Positions 10,232 to 28,842 of a stretch of 30,060 nucleotides of DNA are shown here, piece by piece; the first letter of the stretch is position 1; every line of letters starts with the position of its first letter. The translations under genes were made by a program, and so were the position numbers. Source of the stretch: a virus; the IMG/VR virus record IMGVR_UViG_3300000576_000012, positions 1-30,060 of that record; one strand, 5' to 3'. The notes under the pieces are model-generated. The model had not been told where the DNA came from. It was given only the letters and a program-made list of their open reading frames with translations, and did no database searches.

Positions 10232-10708
10232 TCATTGGTGACAACTCTTGCATTCATGTTGAACAGTGGAATGTTTCATTTCTTTTTCAGTTGGTTGTGG
10301 TGGTAGAAATTTTACAGCGCCTATTTGTCCGTTGTAGTATTTTCTTTCACCATTGGGTTGTGTTGCACGAAGAACATCTTCAAGAACTTGAAGTCTAACT
10401 TCAGCATAATAAAGAGACGCTTTTGTTTCGTGGAGAGATAATATTCTAAACTCAAAGTTATCAATTGAATTTGTTTCTATTTGTTCATTGAGATGTTTAC
10501 TAGAGCTTGTATATGTTTGCCACTTTGTTTCTTTATATACAATTTTTCTATTTTTTTTACCAGGAATTTTCTTCCTAAGTCTTGACAGGAACTGTTTCTT
10601 TCCTATATAATGTTTACCATTATTGTGATCAATTATTCTATAGATGAATCCATACCATTCTGTAGGATCAAACTCAAAGTCACATATCCAATGTCCATAT
10701 CTATACAT
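10232..10708 (-). CDS. GIY-YIG family endonuclease (free-standing, Seg-like)
   Basis: This 158-residue protein has a GIY-YIG-type core at its N-terminus: YGFIYRI (residues 19-25) and KHYIGKK some 8 residues later, followed by a basic helix and the ASLYYAEVRLQVLEDVL segment with a conserved-type Glu. T4 carries similar free-standing Seg endonucleases that promote their own spread. I chose ATG 10708 because the frame upstream runs into the structured RNA region and shows no protein-like sequence. There is no clear ribosome-binding site. A CATAAATA late motif at 10717-10724 ends only 8 nt before the ATG, which would give a nearly leaderless message. The C-terminus has a CKSCH motif that may bind metal. 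It converges on gp46. Confidence 0.75.
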   Translation of the reverse strand: MYRYGHWICDFEFDPTEWYGFIYRIIDHNNGKHYIGKKQFLSRLRKKIPGKKNRKIVYKETKWQTYTSSSKHLNEQIETNSIDNFEFRILSLHETKASLYYAEVRLQVLEDVLRATQPNGERKYYNGQIGAVKFLPPQPTEKEMKHSTVQHECKSCHQ

Positions 10709-10776
10709 AGTGTTATTATTTATGGACTGAAAAAATGAGAAAGCACCAGTTGGTTCTGGTGTTAGGGAATACACAA

Positions 10777-11536
10777 TCAGCAACACATTGGTAAGATAGT
10801 TTACCCCTCTTGAGACTGCCACTATGTGATGTCGTCGGATCTGAGGAGCTGGCCTGAATAAGGAATTGGTTCTTATTCTTGTAGTGTTGATCCACATGGG
10901 CCCGAAAGGATTTCCCATGCTAACCAACACAACCAAAAAAGATTATGCTCTGGTAGAAAAAGATTGGTCATGAACCAAGCCAACATAGGCCCACTTGACA
11001 TAGCTCTCCAAACGAATCGCTGATAGTGGGTCGCGGCATAATGTGCTTTATGATTACAAGTCTACGACGTTGAAGAAACTGGTAACAGTGGATCTAAAAT
11101 GACGCCTTTGGAGTGAAACGGACATATAAGGGGAACCAGCCGTGAAGCTCAACCACAAAGTAACTATTTTATCCTGTGGCCCCACCGAGTGGGACAGCCA
11201 AATGAGGAGCGATATGAGGGTGGCCACCAAATTAGCCATGAGTAACTGAACGCAGAAGATTTTCTGTTAGTTCCAATTTTGTATCGTGTACCTCTGGACA
11301 ACTAGACTTACTTTGCTAATGCGAACCCGGGCAAAGTATAAAGTGCTACGGATAGGCTTAAGAGGATGATGGTGCCCGCCTCACGTTTAGTTGTATGTTT
11401 GGATTCGGTGCGCCTACGCGAAGGGCCTTACGGATATCCGCCCTGAAAGGGGCGGATTATTCCCACCTTGCGAAGGATGTAATAGATACACCTAGTAAAT
11501 CATTACCATTCATTACTGTGTTGCTGAAAATTTTTA
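10777..11536 (+). ncRNA. Candidate large structured RNA (about 750 nt)
   Basis: No convincing protein frame exists between the GIY-YIG start (10708) and 11667. On the plus strand TCAGCAACACA (10777-10787) pairs perfectly with TGTGTTGCTGA (11517-11527). Just inside, TGGTAA (10789-10794) pairs with TTACCA (11503-11508), and GTTTAC (10799-10804) with GTAAAT (11495-11500). Local hairpins include GAATAAG/CTTATTC (10856-10878), CATGGG/CCCATG with an inner GAAA loop (10895-10919), ACTG-GTAA-CAGT (11078-11089), CCCAC-CGA-GTGGG (about 11180-11192), TACTTTGC/GCAAAGTA (11309-11338), a 9-bp stem capped by GAAA (11436-11457) and CCTT-GCG-AAGG (11466-11476). Several GNRA tetraloops appear only in this orientation. 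AAATTTTT follows the closing helix. Size and setting recall the GOLLD/ROOL classes of phage RNAs, but I cannot match it to any class from memory. Confidence 0.7.
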
Positions 11537-15547: not shown

Positions 15548-18500
15548 ATGTCTTGGAAGAAATACTTTAGACCTGTTAATTCAGCGTTGCCAGCACCAAC
15601 AGCATATTCAGACCCATCAAGTTCTGTTAGTAACTTTTCTAGCTGGCTACCTGAATACTATCAAGGTCCGCCAAATCGAATCATGCGTTACTTGCAGTAT
15701 GATCAAATGGATATGGATCATGAGATATCTGCTGCACTTGATACGTTGGCAGACTTCTCAACTCATTTAGATGAAGACACTGGTGTGCCGTTTGAAATTA
15801 ACTATTCAGAAGATGCAAGCCCAAGTGAGATTGAAGTATTAGAAAAAAGTCTAAAGCAGTGGTGCAATCTAAACGAATTTGATAGAAGATTATTCAGGAT
15901 TTTCAGAAGTGTTCTGAAGTATGGCGATCAGTTTTTCATACGACATCCTCGTACATATAAACTACATTGGGTAGATCCAAGTACAGTTGAGAAAGTACTT
16001 GTTAATGAAAGCCAAGGTAAGAAAGTAGAATCGTTTTTCATTAAAGATCTAGACTTGAATTTACAGTCACTGACAGCCAGCAACATGAATCGTAAAACAC
16101 AAAGGGGTTACGATAGTGCTGATACAGTATTTCCAAATGTGCCTTACACAGGCCAAGTTGGTGGTGGTGGATATGGAAATATGTCTAGCTATGGTGGTGT
16201 GGACTATGCAGAAGGCGAAGCATTTCAAGTAGATAGTACTCATGTTGTTCACATGACACTTTCTGAAGGCATGACTTCAAGCTGGCCTTTCGGTATCAGT
16301 ATACTTGAAACAGTGTTCAAAGTTTACAAGCAAAAAGAGTTACTAGAAGATAGTATATTGATATACCGCATACACCGTGCACCAGAAAGACGAATATTTT
16401 ACATTGACACAGGAACTATGCCTCCAAATAAAGCAGCACAGTACCTTGAACGAGTTCGTTATGAAGTACAACAAAAGAGAATTCCAAGCAGAACTGGCGG
16501 CGGGCAGTGCTTTGCAATGGATACAAAAGTACCTCTTTTAGATGGACGTACATTAACCATAGCAGAGTTAACCAAAGAGCATGCAGAAGGTAAGAAAAAT
16601 TGGGCATATAGTTGTGATCCTGTTACAGGAGAACCTATGCCAGGATTGGTATCTTGGGCAGGCGTTACTAAGAAAGATACATCTGTTATAAAAGTAACTT
16701 TAGACAATGGAGAAAGCATTATATGTACTCCAGAGCATAATTTTCCAGTACTAGGAAAAGGAAAAGTGAAGGCTAAAGATTTAGTTGTAAACGAAGACAA
16801 TCTAATTAGCTTTCATACCAGAATGAAATCAATAAATGAAAAAAACGATAATGCTAGTGAATATGAGCAAGTGTTTGATCATTCTGATAAAAAATGGAAA
16901 TTTACACATCGTGTAGTAGCACGATACATGAAGGAGCTTGGAAAGCATCAGGAGTTGATTTTTAGAAAAACAGCTAAAGACAAAAGCAAAAATGTAATTC
17001 ATCATGGTGATTATAATAAGTTCAACAACAATCCAGAGAATCTATATTTCATGAATGGTCGTGATCACTTTTATCTTCATGCTCGTTATAGTGGTTGGCA
17101 TATGTTCACTGAAGAGAGAAAAGCTGAAGCTATTAACAAGAGATTAGAGACACTGGCTAACAGGACAGAAGAAGAAAAAGCTCAAGCATCAAAACAGCGA
17201 AGTGAAATTGCGAAAACTTTCTGGGCTAAAATTAAGAGTGATCCAGTAGAATATAACAAACATAAAGAAAGACTAACAGAACACTTATCAAAAATTGAAA
17301 GTCCACCGTTTGATAATAAGTCTGTTGTAGTAAACGATAGAATGTTTGAAATTATAACGGAATATACTATTTCAGAAAATCCAACAAGAAAAGGTCTATG
17401 TGATCTACTTAAAAGTGATAAAGAATTTATGGAGCTATATGAAAATTTAAATTTTGATGATAGCAACAAAATTAATAAGATTGATCCAAACGGCATATCT
17501 AGAGATAGTATACTAAAGATTGTTAAAAATCATGGATATAAAGACTGGAGGCATTTTGTTAGAAGCCATGGACTAAAAACTATACAGCCAGTAAGAAAGC
17601 TTCGTTGGGAGCAAAAGCAATTGTCTTATTTTGTGGACATAGTTAAAAAAGAAGGAATATCTAGTAAAAACGATGCAGTAAAACGACTACAAAATGATTC
17701 AAAATTTATGAAATGGTTTGCTGAGTTAAATAAGAATATCAAAGGAAATTCAAAGACTACTAATTTTAGTGGCAACACGTTTAATGTATTCCTTAATGAA
17801 TTTGGATATGCAAATTGGTCTGATTTCAAAAACAAACTTGAATTGTTTAATCATAAAGTGGTTTCAATTGAATATCTAGAGGATAAAATTGATGTAGGTA
17901 CACTAACAATTGACAGGGATGAGGAGTTCCATCCTCATCATACGTTTGCATTAGAGACTGGAGTGTACACATATAATTCAATTACAGATGCTGCATATAA
18001 TCCTCTTTCTTCATTGGAAGATTATTACTTTGCTGTAAGTGCAGAAGGTCGTGGAAGTAAAGTAGAAACGCTCCCAGGTGGTGAAAACCTTGGATGCTTC
18101 TCACTTGATACCAAAGTCAAACTTATGGATGGTAGAGATTTATCTATATCTGAAATCAGTGAAGAACTAAAGCAAGGTGAAGAGTTATGGACATATAGCT
18201 GTCACCCTGTTACAGGAGAAGTTGCTCCTGGTTTTATTTCTTGGGCGGGAAAGACAAGAAGTCAAGCTGATGTCGTGAAGATAACTCTTGATAGTGGTGA
18301 TGAGATCGTCTGTACACCTGATCATAATTTCCCAATCAAAGGTGTTGGATTTGTTGAAGCCAAAGATTTATCAGTTGGTGAATCACTGATACCACTTTAT
18401 ATTGAGGGTGACTTGATATATTGCCCACATAAAAAAACTTGGGTGAGTAAAACAACGTTTGGTGTACCAACTCAAGAGCAAGAAAAAGATGTGGAACTAA

Positions 18501-19246
18501 ACCACAAGATTGCTGCAATAGAGTATCTTGAAGAAAAACTTGATGTTGGAACACTAACTGTTGATATCACTGAAGAATATCATGATTATCACACTTATGC
18601 ACTGAGTGTTGGTGTATTTGTTAAAAACTCCATTGATGATCTCAGATACTTCAACAACAAGATGATGAGAGCACTGGGTGTTCCAAGTGGATATCTACCA
18701 ACTGGTCCAGAAGATGGAACCAATGCTTACAGCGATGGTAGAGTTGGTGCAGCATTTATTCAAGAGTTCAGATTTTCTAGAGTATGTCAGCGCTACCAGA
18801 GGCTGATAGCTCCTGTGTTTGATAGAGAGTTTAAGTTGTTCTTGAAGCACAGAGGTATTGAAGTTGATAACTCAATATTTTCATTATCGTTTACACCTCC
18901 GCAGAACTTCTCAGAGTACAGAAAGTTAGAGTTGGATAGTGCTTATGCAAACTTGTATAACTCAGTTGCAGCGAACGAAAATCTGAGTAGAAGATTTGCA
19001 TTGAAGAAGTACCTTGGGTTGAGTGAATCAGAGATTGCAGAGAATGAAAGGCTTTGGAGAGAAGAAAATGATGTGAGCCATTTGACTCAAGATAAGAGAC
19101 CTGGGCTTGACATGAGACAAGCTGATATCAGAGCACCAATGGATACAGATTTTGATGACTTTGGTTTTGGTGATCCAGATATTGGGGAACCAGACATTGG
19201 GGGAATAGACGTTGGTGAACCTGATATAGGTGGAGATGAAATCTAA
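15548..19246 (+). CDS. 20: Portal vertex protein gp20 precursor with two inteins
   Basis: The 1232-residue precursor contains a T4 gp20-type portal (SWLPEYYQGPPNRIMRYLQY near the N-terminus; LLEDSILIYRIHRAPERRIF near 280; then LEDYYFAVSAEGRGSKVETL and the PGGENLG motif; IDDLRYFNNKMMRALGVPSG after the second intein). Residues 321-810 and 850-1027 are inteins. Both insertion points are followed by Ser, the splice nucleophile. Removing both leaves 564 residues, close to T4 gp20 (524). Gp20 is the dodecameric DNA entry channel of the head. The acidic C-terminal tail has four DIG(E/G) repeats. The stop overlaps the next ATG by one base. Confidence 0.92.
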   Translation: MSWKKYFRPVNSALPAPTAYSDPSSSVSNFSSWLPEYYQGPPNRIMRYLQYDQMDMDHEISAALDTLADFSTHLDEDTGVPFEINYSEDASPSEIEVLEKSLKQWCNLNEFDRRLFRIFRSVLKYGDQFFIRHPRTYKLHWVDPSTVEKVLVNESQGKKVESFFIKDLDLNLQSLTASNMNRKTQRGYDSADTVFPNVPYTGQVGGGGYGNMSSYGGVDYAEGEAFQVDSTHVVHMTLSEGMTSSWPFGISILETVFKVYKQKELLEDSILIYRIHRAPERRIFYIDTGTMPPNKAAQYLERVRYEVQQKRIPSRTGGGQCFAMDTKVPLLDGRTLTIAELTKEHAEGKKNWAYSCDPVTGEPMPGLVSWAGVTKKDTSVIKVTLDNGESIICTPEHNFPVLGKGKVKAKDLVVNEDNLISFHTRMKSINEKNDNASEYEQVFDHSDKKWKFTHRVVARYMKELGKHQELIFRKTAKDKSKNVIHHGDYNKFNNNPENLYFMNGRDHFYLHARYSGWHMFTEERKAEAINKRLETLANRTEEEKAQASKQRSEIAKTFWAKIKSDPVEYNKHKERLTEHLSKIESPPFDNKSVVVNDRMFEIITEYTISENPTRKGLCDLLKSDKEFMELYENLNFDDSNKINKIDPNGISRDSILKIVKNHGYKDWRHFVRSHGLKTIQPVRKLRWEQKQLSYFVDIVKKEGISSKNDAVKRLQNDSKFMKWFAELNKNIKGNSKTTNFSGNTFNVFLNEFGYANWSDFKNKLELFNHKVVSIEYLEDKIDVGTLTIDRDEEFHPHHTFALETGVYTYNSITDAAYNPLSSLEDYYFAVSAEGRGSKVETLPGGENLGCFSLDTKVKLMDGRDLSISEISEELKQGEELWTYSCHPVTGEVAPGFISWAGKTRSQADVVKITLDSGDEIVCTPDHNFPIKGVGFVEAKDLSVGESLIPLYIEGDLIYCPHKKTWVSKTTFGVPTQEQEKDVELNHKIAAIEYLEEKLDVGTLTVDITEEYHDYHTYALSVGVFVKNSIDDLRYFNNKMMRALGVPSGYLPTGPEDGTNAYSDGRVGAAFIQEFRFSRVCQRYQRLIAPVFDREFKLFLKHRGIEVDNSIFSLSFTPPQNFSEYRKLELDSAYANLYNSVAANENLSRRFALKKYLGLSESEIAENERLWREENDVSHLTQDKRPGLDMRQADIRAPMDTDFDDFGFGDPDIGEPDIGGIDVGEPDIGGDEI
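16508..17977 (+). mobile_element. Intein 1 with HNH homing endonuclease domain (490 aa)
   Basis: The intein runs from C321 (block A, CFAMDTKVPLLDGR) to N810, before S811. Block B reads ICTPEHNFP. The C-terminal blocks read VGTLTIDRDEEFHPHHTFAL and end VYTYN. The usual penultimate His is Tyr here. Between the splicing halves lies an HNH-like endonuclease: VIHHGDYNKFNNNPENL (H485, H486) and a further RDHFYLH. Two DNA-binding-looking repeats follow (SDKEFMELYENLNFDDSN... and NDSKFMKWFAELNKN..., each leading to a YKDWRHF or YANWSDF motif). It interrupts gp20 between GGGQ and SITDAAYN. The HNH assignment is strong; the repeat domain is described only. Confidence 0.92.
18095..18628 (+). mobile_element. 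Intein 2, mini-intein without endonuclease (178 aa)
   Basis: The intein runs from C850 (CFSLDTKVKLMDGRDLSISE) to N1027, before S1028. Block B is VCTPDHNFP and the end reads YHTYALSVGVFVKN, with Lys instead of the usual penultimate His. It is clearly related to intein 1: both share W-YSC-PVTGE and SWAG motifs after block A, and VGTLTVD before block F. No HNH or LAGLIDADG domain is present, only a short linker. It splits the conserved portal motif PGGENLG from SIDDLRYF. Confidence 0.92.
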
Positions 19247-22348: not shown

Positions 22349-23521
22349 ATGGCAAATAAGCTATTTGAAAGTAAGTGGGCAGGTGCAAAAGAAGCCCTCC
22401 TAGAAGGTCTAAATGGCACCCGCCGTGACAACATGAATGTTGTTTTGGAAAATACTCGCAAACACCTGGCTGAAAATGCAACCGCTGGTGCAACTCAAGC
22501 TGGTAACATTGCTACACTAAACAAGGTTATGCTACCACTGATTCGTCGTGTAATGCCAACTGTCATTGCAAACGAAATCATCGGTGTGCAGCCAATGACT
22601 GGACCAGTAGGTCAGATCCACACTCTACGTGTTCGCTACGCTGACACAAGTTCTGGTGTGACTGCTGGTACTGAGGCGCTAGGACCATTCGATTTGGCTC
22701 GTGCTTACTCCGGTAACGAAGATGCCAACAACCCAAGAGCTGCTAACGTTGCTGCTCTAGAAGGTACCGCTGGTAATCGCTTAAGCATCCAAATCTTGAA
22801 AGAGATCGTTGAAGCAAAAACTCGTCGTCTAAGCGCTCGCTGGACTTTCGAGGCTGCTCAGGATGCTAACGCTATCCACGGCATCGACATCGAAGCCGAA
22901 ATCATGCAGGCTCTAGCACAAGAAATCACAGTTGAAATCGACCAGGAAATGCTGAACAACCTACGCTCTCTAGCAGGTCCAGCTCCTGAAACATTCGACC
23001 AAGGTGCTGTAAGTGGTACTGCTACTTACGTCGGTGATGAACACGCCGCTCTAGCAGTTATGATCAACCAACAAGCAAACCTAGTTGCTGCTCGCACTCG
23101 TCGCGGCGCTGCTAACTGGGCCGTTGTTTCACCAACTGCTCTAACAATCCTACAAAGTGCTACAACTTCAAGCTTCGCTCGTACCACTGAAGGTACTTTC
23201 GAAGCACCAACCAACACCAAGCTAGTCGGTACCCTAAACAACAGCATGAAAGTGTATGTTGACCAATTCGCCGGCGCTGGTGAGGCTGTACTTCTAGGAT
23301 ACAAAGGTCCAAGTGAAACTGATGCTGCGGCTTTCTATTGCCCATACATTCCATTGATGAGCACAGGCCCAGTAATGGACCCACAGACCTTTGAGCCAGT
23401 GGTTTCATTTATGACAAGATACGGTTATCGTGAACTGTCTAACACTGCGAACTCTCTTGGTAACGCTGCTGATTATCTCAGCAAAGTTGGTATCAACGAT
23501 GCGACACTAACTTTCTTCTGA
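22349..23521 (+). CDS. 23: Major capsid protein gp23
   Basis: This 390-residue protein matches gp23: PLIRRVMPTVIANEIIGVQPMTGPVGQIHTLR near residues 65-96 (described here by its span) and PFISYMTRYG-type sequence VVSFMTRYGYREL near the C-terminus. An LAE motif at residues 40-42 is the probable gp21 site, so the mature protein would begin at N43. T4 gp23 is 521 residues, and this shorter form lacks some insertion domain. Codons are strongly biased to C-ending forms (ATC, AAC, TTC), unlike its neighbours, as expected for very high expression. A terminator follows directly. Confidence 0.95.
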   Translation: MANKLFESKWAGAKEALLEGLNGTRRDNMNVVLENTRKHLAENATAGATQAGNIATLNKVMLPLIRRVMPTVIANEIIGVQPMTGPVGQIHTLRVRYADTSSGVTAGTEALGPFDLARAYSGNEDANNPRAANVAALEGTAGNRLSIQILKEIVEAKTRRLSARWTFEAAQDANAIHGIDIEAEIMQALAQEITVEIDQEMLNNLRSLAGPAPETFDQGAVSGTATYVGDEHAALAVMINQQANLVAARTRRGAANWAVVSPTALTILQSATTSSFARTTEGTFEAPTNTKLVGTLNNSMKVYVDQFAGAGEAVLLGYKGPSETDAAAFYCPYIPLMSTGPVMDPQTFEPVVSFMTRYGYRELSNTANSLGNAADYLSKVGINDATLTFF

Positions 23522-23614: not shown

Positions 23615-25267
23615 ATGCTAAATGAAACCGAAACAAAAATATTTTTAGAAAAGCACAATTGGATTTCTTACAGTAACAGATTAAAAGCTCAGCATCTGGA
23701 TTTAATTGAATATTTGAACTCAAAATATCCGCATAAAAGAATATCAGAGCAACTGTGGTTATATGTCAACAATCATAATAGTCCACCCACTTGTTTAGTT
23801 TGTGATAAGCCTTCACGATTTAAGAATATCAAATTAGGCTATTCTGATTTCTGTGGATCAAAAACGTGTTTCTCTCAATACCGAAAAGCAAACAGCAAAA
23901 GTGCAGCTGCGATTGCAAACCAATCAGTGAATCCCCCGCAGTGTAAGCACCCACAATGTGAAAAACCAGTGAAAAAGAACTCACAAGGTCTTTGGAGATC
24001 GTATTGTAGTTTTGAGTGCAGAGGCCAACACAACTCGTTAAAAAGCAGAGACAAAGCCAGAAAAACTTGGACTGAGAAGTATGGTGTTGATCATCCAAGA
24101 AAATCATCTGAGGTGAATGAGAAATTAAAACAAAAATGGATGGATGCACATGGAGTAGACAACCCAGCAAAACTTGATTGGGTTCAAGAAAAGATGCGTG
24201 CCACTTGTTTAGAAAAATATGGCAGAGAGAATGGTGGTCACATGAATCATCATCAGCAAAATGAAAACCTTTACTTGTTGAAAGACAAGACAGAGTTGCA
24301 GAAACTGTACCCATCTAATAGTCCATGTGATATTGCTGAAATAGTTGGATGTCATATCTACACTGTGTATGAGCATTTGCGTATGCATGGGTTGACTTCT
24401 TATGGGAAATCGTCTTTTGAAAAAGAAGTAGTCAATTTTTTGGAAGATTTGGGAGTTGAAAACATAGTTGAAAATGACAGAAAGATACTTAACGGAAAGG
24501 AACTAGACATAGTTCTGCCAGACTACAATATGGCAATAGAGTGTAATGGTCTGTATTGGCACACAGAGAAATACAAAGAAGGAAAAGAGTATCATAGGCA
24601 AAAATTTTTGGAGTGTGAGCAAGCAGGAATTCAGCTACTGTCTATCTTCAATGATGCGTGGGATGACAAAAAAGAAATAGTCAAGAGCATCATTAGACAC
24701 AAGATTGGCAAGAGCGGTAGACGAATATTTGCAAGAAAATGCACGCTAAAAAGAGTGAACAACAGAGACCTCAAACAGTTTTTGAATAGCAATCACATCC
24801 AAGGGTTTGTTGGTGCATCTTATGCATACGCTTTGTTTTACCATCAAGAGATAGTTGCAGTGATGACTTTTTCTTCTCCAAGATCAGGGATCGGTAAAAA
24901 TATAGAGAATTGCTACGAAATTGTGAGATATGCATCTTCTGTACCAGTAGTTGGTGGTGCAAGCAAATTACTTTCTAACTTTACCCGAGATCATTCACCA
25001 TCAGTGATAGTTTCTTACAGTGACAACGAGTGGAGCACTGGGGATTTGTATCTGAAATTAGGCTTTGAACTTGATAGAGAGTTGCCTGCTAGTTACAGTT
25101 ATTTGGCACCTGGTGGGAGAAAAATGTATCATCGTTACAGATTCGCAAAGCATCAATTGGTGAAAGAAGGTTTTGATCCAAGCAAAACAGAAAAACAAAT
25201 AATGCAAGAACGTAATTTTCTGAGAGTTTGGAATTGTGGGAAGCGAACTTGGAAACTTACACTGTGA
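23615..25267 (+). CDS. Homing-type endonuclease 1 (Vsr-like, EDxHD family)
   Basis: This 550-residue protein has, in order: two Cys-rich zinc-finger segments (CLVCDK...CGSKTC; CKHPQCEK...YCSFEC); KYGVDHP-type repeats common in phage homing enzymes; a helix-turn-helix (CDIAEIVGCHIYTVYEHLR); and a Vsr-like nuclease core (FEKEVVNFL, KELDIVLP, IECNGLYWHTE, then YHRQKFLECEQAGIQLLSIF). A C-terminal domain follows with a GNAT-like pattern (VGGASKL...SYSDNEWSTGDLYLKLGFE) ending VWNCGKRTW. It stands alone between gp23 and unrelated genes, a typical site for a free-standing homing enzyme targeting a conserved late gene. Domain names rest on pattern recall. Confidence 0.82.
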   Translation: MLNETETKIFLEKHNWISYSNRLKAQHLDLIEYLNSKYPHKRISEQLWLYVNNHNSPPTCLVCDKPSRFKNIKLGYSDFCGSKTCFSQYRKANSKSAAAIANQSVNPPQCKHPQCEKPVKKNSQGLWRSYCSFECRGQHNSLKSRDKARKTWTEKYGVDHPRKSSEVNEKLKQKWMDAHGVDNPAKLDWVQEKMRATCLEKYGRENGGHMNHHQQNENLYLLKDKTELQKLYPSNSPCDIAEIVGCHIYTVYEHLRMHGLTSYGKSSFEKEVVNFLEDLGVENIVENDRKILNGKELDIVLPDYNMAIECNGLYWHTEKYKEGKEYHRQKFLECEQAGIQLLSIFNDAWDDKKEIVKSIIRHKIGKSGRRIFARKCTLKRVNNRDLKQFLNSNHIQGFVGASYAYALFYHQEIVAVMTFSSPRSGIGKNIENCYEIVRYASSVPVVGGASKLLSNFTRDHSPSVIVSYSDNEWSTGDLYLKLGFELDRELPASYSYLAPGGRKMYHRYRFAKHQLVKEGFDPSKTEKQIMQERNFLRVWNCGKRTWKLTL

Positions 25268-25283: not shown

Positions 25284-25300
25284 TATAAATGTTGTATAAT
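25284..25300 (+). promoter_or_regulatory. Late-type promoter plus TATAAT, endonuclease 2
   Basis: TATAAATG (25284-25291) and TATAAT (25295-25300) repeat the layout at 23579-23595, including the preceding T tract and GCC. The ATG at 25289 lies inside this element. Confidence 0.55.
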
Positions 25301-25312
25301 ATACAAGGGGGT

Positions 25313-26737
25313 TTGTCACGGCAAGAAATAGAAAAACTCGTTAAAGACTATCCAAAACACTATGTTCAAAAAACAAAAGCCAACAGTGAACTGAGAGAGT
25401 GGGTAGAAAGTAATCATACTGTAGATTGTGATCACTGGCCTACCATGATCTACTCCGCTATTAATAACGTTAGTAACATATGTGAAAAAGGAAAATCGCA
25501 AACCATAAAAAGAATATCTCTTGGATTTACTGGTTGTGGACCCGCAAGAGACTGCGAATGTACACGCGACAAAATAGCCAGTAAAACAAAAGAGTCACTT
25601 CGTGAACTACTGACTGAAAAAAAACAATCAGCCAACGAGAAAAGAAAAGCCACGATGGTTGAAAAATACGGGTATGAATTCAATAGTCAGCGCCCAGACA
25701 TACACCATGTCTGGTGCAAACCCAAAATGAATGAACAAACTCACACACTGTTATCTGATCCAGAGTGGGTTGAGGATCAGTATGTAGTGCAAAGAAAATC
25801 TCTGACTGAAATAAGTAACGAACTAGGTGTGTACTATGGAACAGTGGGTGAGTATGTTAGAAAACATGGCTTTCATGTTAGGAGGGTTGTTAACCAATCT
25901 ATAGTGGAAAAGCAAGTAGCTGATTTTTTGAACGATATTGGGGTTGAGTACGCTACAAGTGACTGGGACACTCTTGATACAAAAGAGTTAGATATTGTAG
26001 TCCCATCTAAGAACTTGGCAATAGAAGTCAATGGTCTATATTGGCATAGTTATCACCCAAGTGGTGAATGTAAAGAAGACAAGTATCGTCATTTGTGTAA
26101 AACAAACGAAGCGGAGTCCAAAAACATCAATCTGGTGCACATAACAGACTGGGAGTGGAATAATAGACAGACGGCTGTGAAGTCACTTCTACAAAGCCAG
26201 TTGAAGTTAAACAAAAAAATAGGAGCCAGGAAAACAAAACTATTAGAAGTTTCTGCCAGTCAATGTAGAAACTTTTTAAACGAAAATCACACACAAGGAT
26301 TTGCTCCTGCCAAAAAACATATTGTGCTTGTCCATGATGACAAGATAGTTATGGCGTGTAGCATCGGTAAGAATCGTTTTTCTAAAAATAGCTACGACGA
26401 AGTGATTAGACTAGCCACAGCACAAGGTGTTACTGTAGTTGGTGGGCTGAGCAAAATCATAAAACATTTAGATTCACCACTGGTAAGCTACGTTGACAGA
26501 GACAAGTTTAATGGTAGTGGATATGAGTCAGTTGGGTTTGTGCGTAGAAAAACCACTAGTCCAGGTTATTTTTGGACTGACGGTAATGTTCCAATATCAA
26601 GATATCGTTGTCAAAAGCACAGATTATCAAAATGGCTTACAAGTTATGACAGTGAAAAATCAGAAAGTGATAATATGTTCTATGCTGGTTATAGAAGATA
26701 TTGGAACTGTGGTAACTGGGTGTATGTATTGGAGTGA
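25313..26737 (+). CDS. Homing-type endonuclease 2 (Vsr-like), paralogue of 1
   Basis: From TTG 25313 this is 474 residues (482 from ATG 25289). I prefer TTG because ATG 25289 lies within the promoter, and AAGGGGG sits just before the TTG; this start is uncertain. It shares with endonuclease 1 a helix-turn-helix (LTEISNELGVYYGTVGEYV), the nuclease core (VEKQVADFLNDIG, KELDIVVP, IEVNGLYWHSY, then KYRHLCKTNEAESKNINLVH) and the C-terminal GNAT-like domain (VVGGLSKI...SYVDRDKFNGSGYESVGF) ending YWNCGNWVY. The N-terminal zinc fingers are missing or diverged (a CGPARDCEC remains). Identity is modest, so the pair is an old duplication or two separate arrivals. Confidence 0.8.
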   Translation: MSRQEIEKLVKDYPKHYVQKTKANSELREWVESNHTVDCDHWPTMIYSAINNVSNICEKGKSQTIKRISLGFTGCGPARDCECTRDKIASKTKESLRELLTEKKQSANEKRKATMVEKYGYEFNSQRPDIHHVWCKPKMNEQTHTLLSDPEWVEDQYVVQRKSLTEISNELGVYYGTVGEYVRKHGFHVRRVVNQSIVEKQVADFLNDIGVEYATSDWDTLDTKELDIVVPSKNLAIEVNGLYWHSYHPSGECKEDKYRHLCKTNEAESKNINLVHITDWEWNNRQTAVKSLLQSQLKLNKKIGARKTKLLEVSASQCRNFLNENHTQGFAPAKKHIVLVHDDKIVMACSIGKNRFSKNSYDEVIRLATAQGVTVVGGLSKIIKHLDSPLVSYVDRDKFNGSGYESVGFVRRKTTSPGYFWTDGNVPISRYRCQKHRLSKWLTSYDSEKSESDNMFYAGYRRYWNCGNWVYVLE

Positions 26738-27186: not shown

Positions 27187-27519
27187 CTATCCTTTGTCCT
27201 TTGCTTCTTCCAGAAGGTTATCAATTTGTTCTTGTGTCAATTCAATACAATTGACTTTTTTGTCTAACTGGCGTCTTAGTGTGGTATAGAGTTCATGTAC
27301 ATGCACTATGGAACCATGTGTGCACCAGTTGTAGACATCACCCCTGGTCATGTGAGTTCTCCAGTTCACCACACTTGAGTTAGGACTTATGTCTTGTAAG
27401 TCTAAGTATGCGTAGTGTATGGTCCATATGTCTTTTTTGCGAATTCCGTAATTGCCATCTTTGAACTTAACAATTGTTGGTTGCTCTTGCTTCAACATCT
27501 GTTTCAACATTTTAACCAT
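27187..27519 (-). CDS. Paralogous small protein, array copy E
   Basis: This 110-residue protein carries the array core: PTIVKFKDGNYGIRKK (about residues 14-29), YLDLQD, VVNWR, and VYNWCTHGSI, then a charged helix LTQEQIDNLLEEAK. The family is not one I recognise. The pattern of short strands with invariant Gly, Arg, Asp, Trp and Cys suggests a compact beta fold with a C-terminal helix. AAGGAAGG lies before its ATG inside the preceding gene. It is downstream in the operon led from 28842. Confidence 0.75.
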   Translation of the reverse strand: MVKMLKQMLKQEQPTIVKFKDGNYGIRKKDIWTIHYAYLDLQDISPNSSVVNWRTHMTRGDVYNWCTHGSIVHVHELYTTLRRQLDKKVNCIELTQEQIDNLLEEAKDKG

Positions 27520-27527
27520 TTTGTCTA

Positions 27528-27824
27528 TTACCTTCCTTTTAATCTTTCTGTGAAAAGTTCTTTATTTACTTCATCTTCGGTCATACCAGAAGGTTTCACT
27601 TTTTTGTGTTGTAGCTTGTTATAGATTCCATACACAACACCGATGCTACTTTCTGTACACCATGATGAATATGCAGGAATTAATACCACTCTCCAGTTGA
27701 TTTCATTTCTTGAACTTTTGAAGTCCTTTATGTCCAAGTAAGTGAACCACGGAATTGATATGCTAAATTTTCTAATACCGTAATTTCCATCGCTGAATTT
27801 AACAATTCTAAGCTTTTTAATCAT
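27528..27824 (-). CDS. Paralogous small protein, array copy D
   Basis: This 98-residue protein, the shortest copy, keeps RIVKFSDGNYGIRK, TYLDIKD, EINWR and SSWCTESSI, then the helix MTEDEVNKELF. The N-terminal extension is reduced to five residues, so the core starts at the KFSDG strand. It starts 3 nt after the stop of copy C, with AAAGGATG as ribosome-binding site. Confidence 0.75.
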   Translation of the reverse strand: MIKKLRIVKFSDGNYGIRKFSISIPWFTYLDIKDFKSSRNEINWRVVLIPAYSSWCTESSIGVVYGIYNKLQHKKVKPSGMTEDEVNKELFTERLKGR

Positions 27825-27827
27825 GGT

Positions 27828-28163
27828 TCATCCTTTTAATTTTTCACAAAACACTAGCTTATTGATTTCTTCTTCACTTAACCTTGATGAAATCACGGAT
27901 TTTTTTTGTTTTTCGCACAATTTTTTGTGTACTTTATGTACTATATCAAAGTCTGAGTGTGTGCACCATGAATATATACTATCAAGGTTAATACTCACTC
28001 TCCAGGTCACTTCACTTTGATTAGTATCTGTGAAATCCATAATATCTAAAAATATATAAGAACTTGTGAGACGTTCTTTTTTTCTAATTCCATATTTTCC
28101 ATCTGAAAATTTCACAATTGATGGATTCTCATGTCTGAAGTATTCAATGGCTTTTTTAATCAT
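27828..28163 (-). CDS. Paralogous small protein, array copy C
   Basis: This 111-residue protein has NPSIVKFSDGKYGIRKK, FLDIMD, EVTWR, IYSWCTHSDF and the helix RLSEEEINKLVF. It begins 6 nt after copy B. Close spacing and a shared C-terminal helix (xExEIxK) across copies imply descent by tandem duplication. Confidence 0.75.
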   Translation of the reverse strand: MIKKAIEYFRHENPSIVKFSDGKYGIRKKERLTSSYIFLDIMDFTDTNQSEVTWRVSINLDSIYSWCTHSDFDIVHKVHKKLCEKQKKSVISSRLSEEEINKLVFCEKLKG

Positions 28164-28169
28164 GCTCTG

Positions 28170-28478
28170 CTATCTCTTGTTGTCTTTTTCATCATTTAGT
28201 TCTTTCAGTATTTCTTTTTCAGACATAACTTTGACTTTTGTTATTTTTTTATCTAGTACATTTTTTAGTGCTGTATTAGCTTCTGTGATACTACTTGTTG
28301 TGCACCAAGAATACACACGCGGACAGCTGATGCGAGTACGCCAGTTCACTTCATTGCTGTTAAGCTGGTTGTCCGTGATATCTAAGTATGCAGAGAAGAA
28401 AAGCAGTCTTTTTCTGATCCCGTAATTGCCATCAGCAAACTTCACTATGGATGGTTTTTTTCTGATGAATTTGAACAT
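28170..28478 (-). CDS. Paralogous small protein, array copy B
   Basis: This 102-residue protein has KPSIVKFADGNYGIRKR, YLDITD, EVNWR, VYSWCTTSSI and the helix MSEKEILKEL, making it close to the family consensus. It is separated from copy A's stop by a single base. Function is unknown; basic N-terminus, no membrane segment. Confidence 0.75.
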   Translation of the reverse strand: MFKFIRKKPSIVKFADGNYGIRKRLLFFSAYLDITDNQLNSNEVNWRTRISCPRVYSWCTTSSITEANTALKNVLDKKITKVKVMSEKEILKELNDEKDNKR

Positions 28479-28479
28479 G

Positions 28480-28842
28480 TCATTCCCCCTTAGTCTTCTT
28501 TAGTCTTGTTGTGAACAAAAGCCGTTTTAGATCCTCTTTTGATACAGGAGTAGAAGATACTTGATTGTGTTGTAGTTCTTGGTACGTATCAAATGCTTTT
28601 TTAGTAGCAACAACACAAACATTTGAACAGCAAGAGTGAACTCTGTCACACGTGAGATTTGACCTCCAGTTAATTTCTTTGCTTTCTTGAGCATCAATGA
28701 GATCCAAATACTTGTACTCTTTTTCAAATCTAGTCTTTTTTCTGATTCTGTATCTTTCTTCTTGGAATTGTACGATTACAGGTTCTTCTTCAGTTAAGAA
28801 GAGATTTACTTTAACAAACTGGTCTTTCAGAATAGCAAACAT
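28480..28842 (-). CDS. Paralogous small protein, array copy A (divergent)
   Basis: This 120-residue protein is first in the operon. It keeps EPVIVQFQEERYRIRKK, YLDLID, EINWR and VHSCCSN, but the DGxYG turn has become EERYR and the WCT motif is CCS. Either this copy has a specialised role or it is drifting. It lies 6-25 nt below a 5' stem-loop and a good sigma-70 promoter, so it should be expressed early. The C-terminal helix VSKEDLKRLLF matches the other copies. Confidence 0.75.
   Translation of the reverse strand: MFAILKDQFVKVNLFLTEEEPVIVQFQEERYRIRKKTRFEKEYKYLDLIDAQESKEINWRSNLTCDRVHSCCSNVCVVATKKAFDTYQELQHNQVSSTPVSKEDLKRLLFTTRLKKTKGE

Follow-up and report, generated by a model that had tools for sequence, protein, structure and literature searches.

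Two portal-borne class 1 inteins of a single clade, probably acquired independently, in the T4-type portal gene of an uncultured virus

A portal gene broken by two inteins

Two related inteins separated by only 39 residues in a single portal gene raise the question of whether one of them was copied from the other, as the original prediction for this locus proposed, or whether each arrived separately. In the window (the whole stretch of 30,060 nucleotides that was analysed), a T4-type portal (gp20) ORF at 15548-19246 on the plus strand, 1232 codons and a stop in length, contains two in-frame class 1 inteins. The gene with both inteins matched Pfam Portal_T4 (1.2e-92) and PHROG 213 (1.3e-91), and it is the only portal gene in the window. 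When the inteins were skipped, the whole length of the Portal_T4 profile was covered by three abutting pieces, each above the cut-off and all on the plus strand: the N-extein (15548-16507, ending in RTGGGQ; profile positions 3-244), a middle extein of 39 aa (17978-18094; positions 245-281; 74% identical to that of PA5oct) and the C-extein (18629-19246, starting with SIDDLRYF; positions 281-433). Insert-free homologues of this conserved portal protein exist for both in-frame inserts.

Both inserts scored above the cut-offs of Pfam Intein_splicing (2.7e-12 and 1.6e-11) and TIGR01445. As expected of class 1 inteins, both are in-frame inserts that start with Cys1, carry a block B TxxH (TPEHNF and TPDHNF, respectively) and end with Asn followed by a +1 Ser; the penultimate His, usual but not obligatory, is replaced by Tyr in intein 1 and by Lys in intein 2. 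The extra motifs YSC-PVTGE, SWAG and DVGTLT are common to both. On all these points, including coordinates, lengths, the spacing and the presence of an HNH domain in only one of two inteins of the same family, the original prediction proved exact.

Intein 1 (490 aa; 16508-17977, plus strand) is inserted after portal residue 323 in PA5oct numbering. Its N-terminal (residues 1-103; 16508-16816, plus strand) and C-terminal (residues 447-490; 17846-17977, plus strand) splicing parts are 54% and 59% identical to those of intein 2 over 103 and 44 aa, respectively. The HNH core (residues 146-203; 16943-17116, plus strand) was matched clearly by PHROG 7545 (E 2.6e-6) and weakly, under the cut-off, by Pfam HNH_3 (E 0.012). 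It displays the core letters HHGD..N..DH, and in the structure model (pLDDT 87.9, pTM 0.67), which matches inteins as well, residues 163-195 form the strand-strand-helix of a beta-beta-alpha core. A repeat of a helical module within intein 1 is suggested by a score of 45, where shuffled sequences averaged 28 and 3 of 500 scored as high; no DNA repeat was found in this region. Intein 2 (18095-18628, plus strand; after portal residue 362) is a mini-intein of 178 aa that has lost the HNH domain. Its AlphaFold2 model (mean pLDDT 92.5) shows the Hint fold, and the structures it resembles most in the PDB are inteins, with SspDnaB at E 7.5e-8. Intein 2 does lie at the PGGENLG motif, as had been proposed, yet at its downstream end (PGGENLG/S, the slash marking the insertion point) and not within it; related inteins elsewhere are placed within the motif (PGG/SNLG).

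A clade of portal inteins

The relatives examined were the best 80 of 327, 143 and 90. In the main tree (106 rows, 151 columns; bootstrap not settled, 33 forks open and outgroup branches long), 94 portal inteins including both inteins of the window form a firm clade apart from non-portal inteins (support 97/97), and four inteins at position 344 join it with support 98/86, making a set of 98 rows. Support for the base of this clade is soft: in a quick tree, the branch with all 98 had a support of only 14 once one more distant portal intein was added. Of 174 portal-borne blocks, 170 scored above all 28 non-portal ones, with L147 (57 bits) and L149 (45 bits) among the four portal ORFs that fell short of the best non-portal one. 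Three inteins were set aside, namely L147 (a distant intein at position 386, placed outside the clade by the 106-row tree), L136 (a cut record aligned to 362, although the context EDYWLPRSEG/ suggests about 346) and L206 (position 321, cut by a contig end).

Intein ends were snapped, within two residues, to Cys and to Asn before Ser/Thr/Cys, so that the counts of terminal residues lean towards these: Cys1 in 99 of 99, final Asn in 97 of 98, and Ser (93), Thr (4) or Cys (1) at +1 in 98. Block B reads TP.H in 78 of 99 members and differs in 21, H[TN][FYA] occurs close to the C-terminal end in 96 of 99, and the HNH core HHx[DN]...[DE]H is kept in 68 of 99. Most residues of the YSC-PVTGE, SWAG and DVGTLT motifs recur in other portal inteins. 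As the penultimate residue is Lys in 77 of 98 relatives and His in 5, the missing penultimate His is a family trait, with Lys as the norm. The loss of this residue has already been described for phage inteins, where an upstream block F His can stand in for it [PMC5050341].

Positions within the portal gene

The inteins of the clade, from uncultured phages, occupy some ten positions from portal residue 318 to residue 362, i.e. a stretch of ~45 codons for the DNA-facing clip and channel loop, with up to three inteins per portal gene. Position 318 pools two contexts, YDA/STGE and PNR/SGGG, put in one alignment column. Mapped on the tree, the position labels require 16 changes, compared with 55.2 in shuffles. 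The intein-free portals nearest to that of the window (L215, L216 and L218) are empty at both positions, the original prediction having proposed a check of related portals for empty sites. L201, the closest portal with an intein, has just 62% identity to the window's portal; it contains a single intein, at 333, and is likewise empty at the positions of inteins 1 and 2. Furthermore, some portal alleles are 83-90% identical in their exteins, yet have other positions filled.

Could these inteins be retained as switches, holding back portal maturation by conditional splicing, rather than as mere parasites? An unspliced portal should fail when interrupted in the clip and channel loop, and two stress-responsive DnaB inteins of one protein have been described [PMC6195587]. 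However, the patchy presence just described, with similar portals lacking inteins or having other positions filled, makes such a role improbable. Inteins often reside in conserved regions anyway, which also counts against it.

The distribution of positions further suggests, although only tentatively and with the odds somewhat against it, that HNH inteins can be re-seated over short distances, stepping one to four codons (322 to 323, 333 to 335, 358 to 359 and 362) and nearly always onto serine, besides making long jumps (318, 322, 333, 344, 358). The ~45-codon portal stretch would then be a standing habitat of a single clade with about ten berths. If this were true, cut site and insertion point would not be strictly coupled, and such loose coupling could allow intein positions to drift.

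As a separate matter, jumping by means of DNA likeness between positions was considered and found no support. In 87 of 88 intein-free portals, the 24-base stretches around position pairs resembled each other no more than many other pairs from that gene did; for the best-matching pairs, 323/359, 318/344 and 322/358, a median of 10%, 12% and 13.5% of other pairs, respectively, were equally alike.

Separate origins of the two inteins

The identity of the splicing parts and the common extra motifs could indicate that one intein was copied from the other in this lineage of the gene and that the HNH domain was then lost. The shared motif residues, however, are mostly those found in other portal inteins too, and the tree places the two inteins apart. 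Intein 1 groups with portal inteins at the same or the adjacent codon (322/323; 7 rows, support 100/99), being one codon away from most of its closest relatives, while intein 2 groups with L015 and L016 at position 362 (3 rows, support 100/98), both in the 106-row tree. Holding the two together was rejected by the AU test (p 1.7e-7). The same pattern applied across multi-intein genes: among the inteins of 12 such genes, two pairs of which are near-copies, the nearest relative was found in the same gene in 0 of 25 cases and at the same position elsewhere in 24 of 25. The synonymous choice at 51 shared residues also argues against copying, as the same codon was used in 25, against 22.1 expected from codon usage; with agreement this close to expectation, no recent duplication or gene conversion is visible. 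Copying as a recent event is thus refuted, contrary to the original prediction, for which separate clades had been named as counter-evidence. What remains is an ancestor that preceded the split of the position-specific lineages, and copying within this gene lineage has very little probability left. Inteins 1 and 2 share only an older common ancestor.

Gene conversion between inteins 1 and 2 was rejected as well (longest exact shared run of 15 bases, synonymous agreement near chance). As for co-conversion of flanks, no clear rise of DNA identity near the sites was detected in eight portal pairs with different inteins, which is no evidence either way. Inteins at position 362 measure 531, 314 and 178 aa, and the two longer ones keep the HNH core. 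This size series indicates that intein 2 arose by decay of an HNH intein within a separate line.

A model of acquisition, splicing and homing

We therefore favour, with a probability of roughly 0.85, the interpretation that two class 1 inteins, both from a single portal-borne clade, entered the portal gene independently at two positions, with roles in splicing and homing that we infer. Both inteins would leave the precursor by ordinary splicing via Cys1, Asn and the +1 Ser, so that the three exteins are ligated to give a normal-length portal. As the positions belong to the part of the portal that touches DNA in T4, each intein would need to be gone before the gate could work. Intein 1 would spread by homing, its HNH endonuclease probably cleaving portal alleles without an intein in co-infecting phages, whereas intein 2 would have originated from an HNH-bearing intein at position 362 and, with its endonuclease lost, would persist only by splicing. 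Most positions would be dominated by a lineage of their own, with shifts to new sites uncommon, and multi-intein genes would have been assembled from separate invasions, not by duplication within the gene.

This interpretation presumes functional splicing. Were one or both inteins splicing-dead, the gene would be a relic and the portal would be made elsewhere; the absent penultimate His might point that way, and the record may be a fragment, so that another portal copy could exist outside it. This is nonetheless highly unlikely: the frame is open through all 1232 codons, the catalytic residues are present, penultimate Lys predominates in the relatives, the splicing parts of the relatives are under purifying selection (median dN/dS 0.145 over 48 non-independent pairs), and no other portal is found in the window. 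An assembly artefact fusing unrelated pieces, conceivable for an uncultured virus record, can practically be dismissed, as architectures of this kind are seen repeatedly, across separate records: for example, a single two-intein portal is common to L016-L020, and L008, L009 and L128 (the last two being one contig) share a three-intein portal.

How inteins come to occupy new sites is not well understood. Here, many closely related inteins fill adjacent but distinct positions, ranging from full through shortened to mini forms, and intein-free alleles occur alongside them. Such variety in one gene makes target choice, movement by a few codons, endonuclease decay and competition between neighbours directly testable.

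Comparison with known systems

The nearest named portals, those of PA5oct, Atu_ph07 and Phosso (L012-L014; 47-57% identity in the N-extein), are intein-free, unlike the window's portal. For the splicing parts, the best curated sequence matches were NCBIfam NF052663 (RtcB_rel_intein2) and TIGR01445 (intein N-terminal region); NF052663, however, describes RtcB proteins, and the match was far under its cut-off. A tblastn comparison of four query inteins with 50,697 phage records matched 3 records with intein 2, 3 with intein 1, 5 with L103 and 8 with L027, at identities of at most 37.4%. Only one portal intein was found among these, in LR756508.1 (L295), and it is distant and outside the firm clade. 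This record from an uncultured phage contains a portal ORF (profile E 5.6e-30) whose related intein, 39% identical at best, is inserted farther downstream, near position 399 of the portal profile. Upstream in the same portal, a second, dissimilar intein was noted on visual inspection. Host genes of the other records were assigned by annotation where identified; in the SP-15 ORF, the intein was the sole Pfam match and no portal match was obtained.

Haloarchaeal MCM inteins a to d likewise occupy four close positions in one gene, two neighbours often co-occurring, and the models described there lend no support to co-homing [PMC10643990]. They differ in having LAGLIDADG endonucleases and a cellular helicase as host, instead of HNH and a phage portal [PMC10643990]. 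Closer in setting are the PORT (cluster C1) and TerL inteins of mycobacteriophages (Kelley et al. 2016) [PMC5050341], which also reside in phage head and packaging genes and, as here, keep the penultimate His inconsistently; TerL1 sites a to e similarly represent several positions in one gene family. PORT, however, is one table entry with 6 inteins in that report [PMC5050341]. In the present sequences, by contrast, a single clade is spread over about ten T4-type portal positions.

Two inteins in a portal gene

The portal gene of this 30,060-base virus record is of the T4 type (15548-19246, plus strand, 1232 aa; Pfam Portal_T4, 1.2e-92), and its profile match falls into three abutting pieces (profile ranges 3-244, 245-281 and 281-433). 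The first gap between them holds intein 1 (16508-17977, plus strand, 490 aa) and the second intein 2 (18095-18628, plus strand, 178 aa), separated by 39 extein residues. Both matched Pfam Intein_splicing above cut-off (2.7e-12 and 1.6e-11) and TIGR01445, and identity between them is 54% in the N-terminal part (103 residues) and 59% in the C-terminal part (44 residues). The AlphaFold2 model of intein 2 is a Hint domain (pLDDT 92.5) whose best structure matches are solved inteins, and in that of intein 1 (pLDDT 87.9, pTM 0.67) the Hint ends recur, with the HNH core plus a helical region between them. The abutting pieces, splicing matches and Hint models thus bear out the original prediction of two related inteins in one portal gene, one with HNH and one mini. 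Within intein 1, a helical module may be duplicated (17408-17827, plus strand; LKSDKEF...GYKDWRHF / LQNDSKF...GYANWSDF; 3 of 500 shuffles as high).

Neither intein carries the usual penultimate His, as had been remarked, and this is a habit of the family: among 98 inteins the residue is Lys in 77, Phe in 5, His in 5, Tyr in 3 and others in 8. A phage intein with penultimate Gly has been reported to splice (PMC5050341). Beyond the sequence anatomy, fold prediction, relationships and empty alleles established here, we propose that both inteins would splice out of one precursor, that intein 1 would home through its HNH, and that intein 2 would persist through splicing alone.

Relatives and phylogeny

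Five overlapping IMG/VR scans gave 6, 2, 327, 90 and 143 relatives, of which at most the best 80 per scan were taken; 2 came from the set of bacterial and archaeal genomes. An N-terminal splicing block was present in 202 ORFs among the matches listed; the portal profile also matched 174 and did not match 28, and 170 of the 174 portal-borne blocks scored above the best of the 28. A Pfam scan of seven non-portal inteins allowed two host genes to be named, family A DNA polymerase and class II ribonucleotide reductase. A separate portal scan, biased to uninterrupted portals, listed 80 loci with a portal ORF in all and an intein block in none. The window portal ORF was matched by 2006 of 50,697 phage records, in which four query inteins (E <= 1e-5) found a sole portal intein, that of uncultured phage LR756508.1, which is distant (39% identity at best) and does not fall within the firm clade described below. 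In the portal ORF of this 484 kb phage (L295:527-4687) the downstream intein spans residues 659-1116, and an upstream stretch (CLAPETKV... to VVSHN/TLLEDAM) looks by eye like a second intein of a different kind.

Removal of same-position near-copies reduced 180 inteins with both ends to 99, which with 7 non-portal inteins made a 106-row tree. One branch (98/86) set apart 98 portal inteins, that is all except the distant L147 (L147:5864-7192), which maps to about position 386 of a portal ORF, has Cys at +1 and lies outside the clade. The 94 not at position 344 (PA5oct portal numbering, the intein following the residue named) formed a firm clade (97/97) including inteins 1 and 2. The 344 inteins are tentative members, since in a quick tree with LR756508 added the 98-intein branch persisted with support 14, against 97 for the split placing the 344 group beside the outgroups.

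Intein 1 (position 323) was placed among seven inteins at 322/323 (100/99; closest identity 68%, L098), and intein 2 (position 362) with L015 and L016, also at 362 (100/98; L015 identity 74%), this trio being nested in a 358/359/362 group (98/97). Constraining the two together lowered the log-likelihood by 98 and was rejected (p-AU 1.7e-7). Of 51 synonymous-capable residues common to both, 25 use the same codon, where usage predicts 22.1. The proposal that one intein arose from the other, drawn from their similarity, is therefore not supported: they fall in separate groups, 322/323 versus 362. Twelve genes contain two or three intact inteins, 25 in all (two pairs of these genes are near-copies). 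None of the 25 has its nearest relative within its own gene; for 24 it sits at the identical position in another gene, and for intein 1 it lies one codon away. Position labels required 16 changes on the 106-row tree (minimum 11; shuffles 55.2), and DNA likeness between positions did not account for the moves.

Lineages at 362 come in three sizes, 531, 314 and 178 aa. Because the two longer forms keep HHxD...N...DH and intein 2 retains only scraps of it, the most likely history of intein 2 is loss of an HNH of its own, not the trimming of a copy of intein 1.

Gain, loss and empty alleles

Some related portals are empty at both sites. The best-scoring relative of the window portal, L201 (62%), carries a single intein, at 333, and the next, L215, L216 and L218 (61-63%), are intein-free; L216 reads TGGGQNIVD and ENLGDIDD versus TGGGQ/SITD and ENLG/SIDD in the window. 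Of 98 inteins, 93 have Ser at +1, 4 have Thr and 1, L147, has Cys. Ser follows the site in 86 of 88 intein-free portals at 333, in 12 at 358 and in 1 at 362, and L201 and Atu_ph07 have a native Ser at 362 without an intein there. Either Ser alleles were selected as targets, or the Ser was brought by the intein.

Among portals with 83-90% identical exteins, different positions are filled (L187 at 323 versus L105 at 333; L098 at 322 versus L008 at 322, 333 and 358), from which intein gain and loss seem to be frequent. In 48 non-independent same-position pairs of related inteins (dS 0.05-1.2), the splicing parts had a median dN/dS of 0.145, i.e. purifying selection, and intein dS was below half of extein dS in 7.

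Insertion positions

When the exteins were joined and aligned to the PA5oct portal, the insertion points came out after residues 318, 321 (in a single cut record), 322, 323, 333, 335, 344, 358, 359 and 362; for another cut record, L136, the position indicated is about 346. By alignment to 3ja7 (offset 69 to the full-length chain), T4 gp20 equivalents are about 316/317 for 318, 328/329 for 333, about 338/339 for 344, and 353-358 for 358-362. The T4 clip domain is described as residues 279-358, with R338 and K342 in the inner clip loop, and the channel loop as 350-359, both loops being set against DNA (PMC4493910). By this alignment and these limits, the positions lie within the clip domain and channel loop.

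Two or three inteins, cut ones included, occur in 14 of 134 distinct intein-bearing exteins; fragments or near-copies are among the 14 (L016/L021, L181/L182, probably L063/L068). The portal of L008, L009 and L128 holds three, at 322, 333 and 358 (156, 254 and 346 aa), each below the 420-490 aa of many relatives.

Other mobile elements and comparison with known inteins

The major capsid gene (22349-23521) is immediately followed by two related tandem free-standing homing endonucleases (23615-25267 and 25289-26737, plus strand; PHROG 3339; 36% mutual identity over 375 aa), so the head-gene cluster holds several mobile endonucleases. A SegE-type GIY-YIG endonuclease is encoded at 10232-10936, minus strand (Pfam SegE_GIY-YIG 6.2e-33; PHROG 7363 2.1e-23). 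By eye, a row of small ORFs with a YGIRKK...WCT-like motif (27187-28842, minus strand) has the look of a tandem gene family.

Two inteins per gene, portal inteins and clustered positions have each been reported singly (PMC5050341, PMC10643990), and no description of the present portal-intein clade was found in the open-access literature searched, judged by titles and abstract openings. What seems new is that a single clade occupies about ten positions within a short part of one gene, some of them just 1-4 codons from each other.
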